From positions 1 to 36,855 of the forward strand of contig CAIXQW010000081.1 in NCBI GenBank assembly GCA_903921675.1: DNA of 36,855 nucleotides. Direction: 5' to 3'. The notes beneath the pieces were generated by a model that ran no database searches, had not been told where the DNA came from, and saw nothing but the letters and a program-made list of their open reading frames with translations. The position numbers and the translations under genes were made by a program. This stretch comes from an uncultured bacterium. Its GTDB lineage: Bacteria; Bacteroidota; Bacteroidia; Chitinophagales; Chitinophagaceae. How positions within the stretch are numbered: position 1 is the stretch's first letter; each line of letters opens with the position of its first letter. Positions 3,006-33,709 of the stretch are shown one piece after another.

Positions 3006-3013
3006 AAAAGTTG

Positions 3014-3120
3014 GACACAAAGGACACCATGAACTACAAAGTCCACAATTTATTTTGGTCCTAAAAGGATACAATTCCATAGTGCCCTTTGTGCAAACCT
3101 TCGTGAGCCTTGTGACCAAA
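3014..3120. repeat. CACAAAG-type palindromic repeat, unit 1
   Basis: GACACAAAGGACACCATGAACTACAAAGTCCAC ... GTGCCCTTTGTGCAAACCTTCGTGAGCCTTGTGACCAAA; the 3' arm is approximately the reverse complement of the 5' arm; near-identical to unit 2. Confidence 0.85.
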
Positions 3121-3160
3121 TTCTTAGTTCAATCGGCTTGTTTTAGGTTTCTACAATTGA

Positions 3161-3266
3161 GACACAAAGGCCACCATGAGACACAAAGGCCACAATTTAT
3201 TTTGGTCATAGAAGATATAATAACCTAGTGCCCTTCGTGCAAACCTTCGTGAACCTTGTGTCCAAA
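3161..3266. repeat. CACAAAG-type palindromic repeat, unit 2 (tandem with unit 1)
   Basis: GACACAAAGGCCACCATGAGACACAAAGGCCACAATTTATTTTGGTC ... TAGTGCCCTTCGTGCAAACCTTCGTGAACCTTGTGTCCAAA; aligns end to end with unit 1. Confidence 0.85.
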
Positions 3267-3274
3267 TATTATTT

Positions 3275-3308
3275 GCAAAAAACCCCTCCAATACAGAAGG
3301 TTTTTTTA
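3275..3308. terminator. rho-independent-like terminator (imperfect stem)
   Basis: CAAAAAACCCCTCCAATACAGAAGGTTTTTTT; A-tract, short stem, T-tract; lies between convergent hutH and the 3348-6491 CDS. Confidence 0.55.
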
Positions 3309-6555: not shown

Positions 6556-6588
6556 ACTATTATTCTAAAGTATAACTTTCTATTGAAG

Positions 6589-6696
6589 TGTGGCACAAAG
6601 GCCATTATGCAAACAAGGCCTGAAATTTAATCAATTTTAACTAATTAAATTTCTATTTTGCCCTTTGTGTAATTTTTTGTGAACCTTGTGGCCAAA
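6589..6696. repeat. CACAAAG-type palindromic repeat, unit 3
   Basis: TGTGGCACAAAGGCCATTATGCAAACAAGGCC ... TTGCCCTTTGTGTAATTTTTTGTGAACCTTGTGGCCAAA; same arm vocabulary and end sequence (ACCTTGTGkCCAAATATTA) as unit 2. Confidence 0.75.
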
Positions 6697-6707
6697 TATT
6701 AACCTAC

Positions 6708-22433: not shown

Positions 22434-22962
22434 GCAGAAAAATTATTTTAGCAAATATCTGATAATAAATTTAAAGATAATAGAATTAAAGTTTATTTAT
22501 CATAGTAAATTAAATATTAATGAATTAGGGTTATTAAGTAGGAGTGGTAGAAGTATCAAATATTTACATTTCGGCAAAAATAAATTGGATATTTAAATGT
22601 GAGTTGGTTTTAAGATGATTCACTATTCTGGTAGATTTCTATAAATTTCATCAAGAGGATAAAGACTTTTTGTAATATGTTCTGTAAAAAAAATTGAATG
22701 AATAAATTTTGAGGTTTTTGCAGCTATCGCATCTGTGATAATAGTTGTGCTTTATATATAGGATGCAATTTTTTCTCACAATTCAGTTATAAGAATATAC
22801 AACCGTTTACTAATAAATCTAATTTTTAATTCGCGTTTAAATTCGTTTTAGCTTTACCCCAAAAATTTTACTAAATGTAATTTAATGCAATGTCCTTAAT
22901 TTCTTCATCTTTAGAAAATAACACTCACTTAAAATCACCTATTTGTTTAGCCCAATCCACCT

Positions 22963-33094: not shown

Positions 33095-33105
33095 TAAATT
33101 CATTC
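33095..33105. repeat. left copy of 11-bp direct repeat TAAATTCATTC flanking repeat unit 4 (candidate target-site duplication)
   Basis: Exact match to 33204-33214. Confidence 0.5.
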
Positions 33106-33203
33106 TTTGTGCCTCTTTGTGAAAATTTTTGCGTCACTTTGTGGAATAGTTACACAAAAGCCACGAAGTAGTCACAAAAGCCACAAAAAGGAATAAGGCT
33201 AAA
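33106..33203. repeat. CACAAAG-type palindromic repeat, unit 4
   Basis: TTTGTGCCTCTTTGTGAAAATTTTTGCGTCACTTTGTGGAA ... ACACAAAAGCCACGAAGTAGTCACAAAAGCCACAAAAAGG; arms are imperfect reverse complements. Confidence 0.75.
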
Positions 33204-33214
33204 TAAATTCATTC
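33204..33214. repeat. right copy of 11-bp direct repeat TAAATTCATTC
   Basis: Exact match to 33095-33105. Confidence 0.5.
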
Positions 33215-33332
33215 ATAATTTATAAGAGTAATGCATTTTTAAATTCTTCCTTCTTGTATTCTCTTTGTGGAATAATTTTTCTATAGATAAATAATATTTT
33301 TGTTTCTTTGTTATACATATTTCTCAAAAAAC

Positions 33333-33709
33333 ATGAAACAAATGATTGAAAAAACGAAAACGAATTATCTAACATCATACTTGGTTGCGCCATAGAAGTT
33401 CATAAACAATTAGGTCCTGGATTACTAGAATCAGCTTATTAAGAGTGCTTGTATTATGAATTAATAAAAGCCGGTTTATCTGTAATAAAAGAAAAACCAA
33501 TGCTAATCATTTATAAGGATATCAAATTAGATCATGGTTACAGAATAGACTTACTTGTAAATAATAAAGTGGTCATAGAAATTAAAACTGTAGAAGCATT
33601 TACGGATGTTCATGTGGCACAAGTTCTCACCTATTTAAAACTCGGAAATTAGTTATTAAACTTTCATGTAACAACACTTAAATCTGGCATCAAAAGAATA
33701 ATTATTTAA
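33333..33709 (+). pseudogene. GxxExxY family protein (PD-(D/E)XK-like), degraded: N-terminal frameshift plus two in-frame stops
   Basis: Manual conceptual translation: [123 protein letters not shown]; signature GLLESAY and D..ExK (RIDLLVNNKVVIEIKT). Confidence 0.85.

Follow-up and report, generated by a model that had tools for sequence, protein, structure and literature searches.

In the window analysed here, a stretch of 36,855 nucleotides from an uncultured bacterium of the family Chitinophagaceae, a decayed gene of the GxxExxY family lies next to a palindrome made of CTTTGTG/CACAAAG words. Do gene and palindrome form a RAYT/REP-like pair, as a preliminary description of this DNA proposed, or do they belong together in some other way? 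In our analysis, the window proved to contain three low-copy solo hairpins and one decayed element that still bears its gene, all belonging to a widespread class in which the gene lies within the hairpin. In the literature searched, we found no earlier description of this gene-in-hairpin class, and no function or flanking element was found there for GxxExxY (TIGR04256/PF13366).

The decayed gene is located at 33365-33709 on the forward strand. Its frame, which ends at 33709, matched TIGR04256 with 128 bits (cut-off 35) and PF13366 (PDDEXK_3) with 124 bits (cut-off 22), and it is interrupted by two in-frame stops, TAA at 33440-33442 and TAG at 33650-33652; the decayed GxxExxY gene suspected from the letters was thus confirmed. 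A second, badly decayed remnant at 22679-22846 on the reverse strand has three internal stops and a score below the cut-off, and no words around it were recognised by eye. The window's own genome gave five GxxExxY matches, four of them above the cut-off, and only C164 (locus L007) is full-length and intact. The words at L007 differ, with AACAAAGAGGNTAAGAG upstream and CTCTTANCCTCTTTGTT downstream.

The palindrome near the gene (33105-33187) is also real. Its fold at RNA energies (-27 kcal/mol, z -3.3) is clearly better than those of shuffled sequences, and the window has 15 copies of CTTTGTG where 6.3 were expected, a count matched in 0 of 100 shuffles. The z values of the other palindromes were -2.6 (3155-3275), -1.8 (3006-3128), and -0.8 (6580-6700). 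A known RNA family was also considered, and no Rfam match was found in the window.

The PD-(D/E)XK core read in the decayed copy was supported by the family to which this pseudogene belongs. D67, E77, and K79 of the D...(D/E)xK triad, as well as Q91, are invariant in 65 GxxExxY sequences, and the AF2 model of the protein, a confident one (pLDDT 95.8), has a predicted fold like those of Cas4 and lambda exonuclease. The nearest PDB folds were Cas4 SSO0001, LHK-Exo, and lambda exonuclease, with modest E-values (best 2.6e-3) and a high rmsd, which counts against the element model proposed below. A sequence search of the PDB gave one insignificant match, and PADLOC gave only weak Cas4-like matches (best E-value 0.0006).

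Flanking sequences were studied for 30 genes of the window's bacterial family and for 80 loci of many phyla; 168 GxxExxY genes had usable flanks, and the loci include Bacteroidota, Ignavibacteria, Acidobacteria, Planctomycetota, Verrucomicrobiota, Chloroflexota, and Treponema. Other ORFs of the same loci (216), mismatched partners, and S23 genes were used as controls. In these 168 genes, the usual position of the GxxExxY gene was inside a hairpin, with repeats of a CRCRRAG word upstream and their reverse complements downstream. In the expected polarity, the two sets had 1.77 and 2.03 such words per 150 nt, and the 216 control ORFs had 0.12. The proposed link between GxxExxY genes and palindromes therefore holds as an enrichment, but the gene is inside the hairpin and not beside it. 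The upstream words include CACAGAG, CGCAAAG, CACAAAG, and CACGGAG at a spacing of about 9-10 nt, and the outer end of the left arm often reads TTTAA-CCRCRRAG; CACAAAG, taken earlier as the hairpin word, is found at these loci but is merely one of many. Although the words vary from locus to locus, both ends of one locus match. The median score of the gene-spanning inverted repeat was 21 with the gene's own partner and 12 with mismatched partners (p=6e-12 and 1e-22 for the two sets), so that across loci the gene is seen to occupy the loop between terminal inverted repeats, the copy in the window not being intact. About one-quarter of the loci lacked an arm score of at least 18, which we count against the element model. 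The left arm starts at the stop codon of the host gene (median position of the outer end, +1 nt), the whole element is roughly 0.45-0.7 kb long, and the nuclease gene has about 125 codons.

When the palindrome in the window was compared with intact loci, its two halves (both on the forward strand) differed in polarity. The first half (33105-33147) consists of right-arm-type words (CTTTGTGCCTCTTTGTG..CTTTGTGGAATAGTTA), possibly the leftover end of a preceding element, and the second half (33148-33190), on the upstream side of the gene, of left-arm-type words (ACACAAAAGCCACGAAGTAGTCACAAAAGCCACAAAAAGG). Word search gave an extra right-arm-type word, CTCTTTGTGGAATAAT (at 33263, forward strand; 33261-33276), between palindrome and gene. 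The adjacency reported earlier is correct insofar as a palindrome lies upstream of the gene, but the words beside the gene mix both arm types. No right arm follows downstream, as the frame continues into the end of rlmD. The mixed polarity and the missing right arm thus identify the gene-bearing copy in the window as decayed and incomplete. The three solo hairpins, all on the forward strand, contain no gene. The hairpin at 3014-3121 has the canonical polarity (CACAAAG left, CTTTGTG right), that at 3161-3270 is 86% identical to it, and that at 6594-6700 folds no better than shuffled sequences and has a right arm 83% identical to the right arm of 3161-3270. The relatives of 3161-3270 in its own genome were the tandem copy (86%) at 3014-3121, a partial one at 6659-6700, and otherwise weak matches; the palindrome is therefore low-copy in this genome. 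In relation to the classical MITE (terminal inverted repeats, many near-identical copies, target duplications), the observation made was the low copy number of the window hairpins.

Occupied and empty sites, for which a search had been suggested, were present at the metH and hemN junctions. At the junction between the N and C parts of metH, about 10 of 27 readable genomes contain a gene-bearing element of 450-690 bp, and most others have 1-148 bp. At least five changes at this site were placed on a FastTree tree. Because the proteins found there fall into at least three groups (37-54% identity), the metH junction was filled more than once. The Flavobacterium hemN-cyclase junction was found in the gene-bearing state, with a decayed gene (L373), with gene-less hairpins, with a right-end stub (L350), and empty. 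The gene-less hairpin at L257 retains the words of its gene-bearing neighbours, and solo palindromes resemble relatives that lack the gene and occupy the same sites. The gene-bearing hemN proteins trace to one gain and look vertically inherited, which counts against the element model. Taken together, the metH and hemN junctions show filled and empty sites and repeated independent insertion, as in a mobile element. In the closest filled/empty pair, 240 nt upstream are 92.5% identical and the intergenic parts are not alignable. The arms of one site pair better with each other than with those of orthologous sites at nuoFG (p=0.008) and for the solo hairpins of hemN (p=5e-4), and metH shows a weak preference of this kind (p=0.04). 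Orthologous arms at nuoFG and in the hemN solos stay complementary while their words drift; at the gene-bearing hemN sites, own arms paired no better than swapped arms (p=0.15).

Some further observations were made at these junctions. Another small class of gene-less hairpins, with words of the AACGCTGAT / ATCCGCGTT type, occurs at the hemN junction (L255, L267, L349, L351, L352, L354, and L360). The metH junction of genome G017 (L309) has a right-arm-like remnant alone (CTTCGTGATCCTCTGTGCCTCTGTGGTTC). A contig binned as Rhizobium (L059) contains a Flavobacterium hemN junction with an element and is probably mis-binned.

The explanation we favour, with moderate confidence, is that small elements bounded by hairpins carry GxxExxY genes as their cargo, probably also as their enzyme, and enter or persist at stop-codon junctions. 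Such an element would consist of a left arm of short direct repeats, the nuclease gene, and, as its right arm, the left arm's reverse complement; located at the stop codon of a host gene and oriented with host transcription, it would probably be expressed from the host. The GxxExxY protein may recognise DNA, either as its own words or as the folded hairpin, and may cleave there, and this cleavage would let the element enter or persist at the junction. The spread would be by homing-like transfer and not by intragenomic bursts, and loss of the gene from an element would yield a solo hairpin. In the family studied, GxxExxY exceeded the cut-off in 95 of 150 genomes. Three results on distribution count against the element model: no match was found among 50,697 phages, only 8 of 72,556 plasmid records contained GxxExxY, and none of the same-genome pairs compared exceeded 80% identity, so that there was no recent intragenomic copying. 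The elements, if mobile, therefore move rarely.

The near absence from phages and plasmids would also be expected if the hairpins were a domesticated, vertically inherited device of the operon that acts in RNA, like the S23 intervening sequence (IVS) in 23S rRNA, which has stem-loops with an ORF in the loop (PMC4990558). In this alternative, the transcript would fold through the words and undergo processing, by RNase III for instance; the protein of the GxxExxY gene would bind or trim the RNA and alter the expression of the neighbouring operon genes. Orientation is consistent with such a role: both neighbours were co-oriented with the gene in 124 loci and both opposed in 10 (107:6 for the GPG type, 17:4 for the GNGF type), and S23 genes gave 26:2. 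Purifying selection on the gene is also strong (dN/dS about 0.06, dS being close to saturation), and the single gain at hemN and the retained complementarity of the hemN solo hairpins fit as well. However, G-U pairs on the sense strand were not in excess over A-C mismatches (94 vs 117; 41 vs 52), so that wobble on this strand did not support selection for an RNA hairpin. Empty sites and decay are frequent, and the neighbours of the predicted fold are DNA exonucleases. We regard the RNA device as unlikely.

The favoured explanation, in which the protein recognises the ends of its own element, has a further competitor: the genes may be passengers of palindromes or MITEs that existed before them and are mobilised by unrelated transposases, the protein having no relation to the words. 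Multi-copy CTTTGTG families do exist. Those dispersed in G060 (L319-L331) and G031 (L332-L336) are MITEs of about 105-130 bp with terminal inverted repeats of 17-18 bp of their own (TCAATGTCGTTTAGTTAA; GGGCATCTCTAAAAACC) and one arm of the same words inside. No such terminal repeats were seen by eye at the gene-bearing loci read, and the words themselves argue against passengers. Among GxxExxY loci, arm similarity climbs with protein identity, and at equal protein identity, arms that share a genome resemble one another no more than those from different genomes do; words driven by the host are therefore rejected. The two subfamilies also have different ends: CRCRRAG pairs accompany 83 of 144 genes of the GPG type (GPGLLE) and 0 of 24 of the GNGF type, and GTCTGAA ends 2 of 144 and 16 of 24, respectively (p=2e-8 and 1e-14), a difference that holds where both subfamilies share one genome. 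As judged from these comparisons of sequences, the words belong to the protein and not to the host. As each of the two main nuclease types has its own hairpin words, it appears that nuclease and hairpin travel together or are kept together, and passengers are improbable. In three loci of the GNGF type (L222, L219, and L223), the host gene apparently takes its stop codon and final residues from the end of the element (TGTCTGAAC..); at L222, this host gene looks HsdS-type-like by eye.

A nuclease that, in the manner of REP/RAYT, mobilises many dispersed hairpins in trans from a single copy would account for solo hairpins and for the correlation between genomes (CTTTGTG pairs in 41 of 96 GxxExxY-positive and 7 of 54 negative genomes, p=2e-4, not corrected for phylogeny). 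RAYTs, too, have a low copy number and distinct repeats that are cognate to them (PMC3116915, PMC8266576). Such mobilisation is nevertheless very improbable: we found no solo family of high copy number that matched a GxxExxY resident in its genome, hairpins in the window's own genome are low-copy, the multi-copy families of G060 and G031 are MITEs, and G017 has 14 matches to the CTTTGTG pair pattern and no GxxExxY. As these MITEs carry the words and inflate the counts, genome-wide CTTTGTG counts are only supportive and were rejected as proof of mobilisation in trans.

If GxxExxY genes are the cargo of hairpin-bounded elements, one of the commoner uncharacterised nuclease families has, in its cognate hairpins at stop codons, a testable substrate, and the palindromes of short words dispersed over these genomes could be explained as having originated from the elements. 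There would also be technical interest in a protein able to read a simple word array specific to its lineage and to enter junctions at stop codons while leaving genes unbroken.

The elements may be compared with three known systems. In PD-(D/E)XK homing elements, too, the nuclease gene has a fixed site, alleles with and without the element exist, and one site is reached repeatedly. In contrast to them, GxxExxY elements have many unrelated sites and self-complementary word arms, and no intron or intein.

By its pairing of a nuclease with cognate palindromes, RAYT/REP (REPtron, REPIN) is the nearest known system. Both have a low-copy chromosomal nuclease gene near palindromes, distinct cognate repeats for each protein lineage, and gene-less palindromes, and to this extent the RAYT/REP-like pair first proposed is upheld. 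The GxxExxY elements are not members, however: the gene is within the hairpin, no HUH tyrosine (Y1) transposase was found (PDDEXK_3/GxxExxY being the sole Pfam/NCBIfam family above the cut-off), and no high-copy dispersed cognate palindromes were found, the hairpins being low-copy in the window's own genome and the word families of G060 and G031 being MITEs. Strict RAYT/REP identity was therefore ruled out.

By architecture, the nearest known system is the S23 IVS of 23S rRNA, described in Coxiella burnetii as stem-loops with the S23p ORF in the loop (PMC4990558). Shared features are a stem-loop whose loop contains the gene of a small protein, terminal inverted repeats, a scattered distribution, conserved sites, slight harm to the host, and suspected mobility (PMC4990558). 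Genes for the S23 four-helix protein outside rRNA also have gene-spanning inverted repeats (20 vs 12, p=9e-9), with words different from those of GxxExxY, such as RTAAGT arrays. In loci L129-L158, hairpins with words such as RTAAGT repeats, GGCAA repeats, or AGTCAAAAGT lie at operon junctions, which by eye are apparently those of argD, a leuB/idh-like gene, and atpC. We suggest only tentatively that there is an undescribed general class of bacterial gene-in-hairpin elements, in which unrelated small genes (PD-(D/E)XK GxxExxY, S23 four-helix) lie in family-specific word hairpins, insert at operon stop codons, spread by an encoded protein that would recognise the words as folded DNA, and leave solo hairpins. 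The 23S rRNA IVS would be one special case, and the old puzzle of rRNA intervening sequences may thereby be connected to a broader class. The GxxExxY elements themselves are not S23 IVS: they lie at operon junctions at stop codons, flanked by protein operons and not in a 23S rRNA helix, they encode a PD-(D/E)XK protein of another family in place of the S23 four-helix ORF, and their arms are arrays of 7-nt words.
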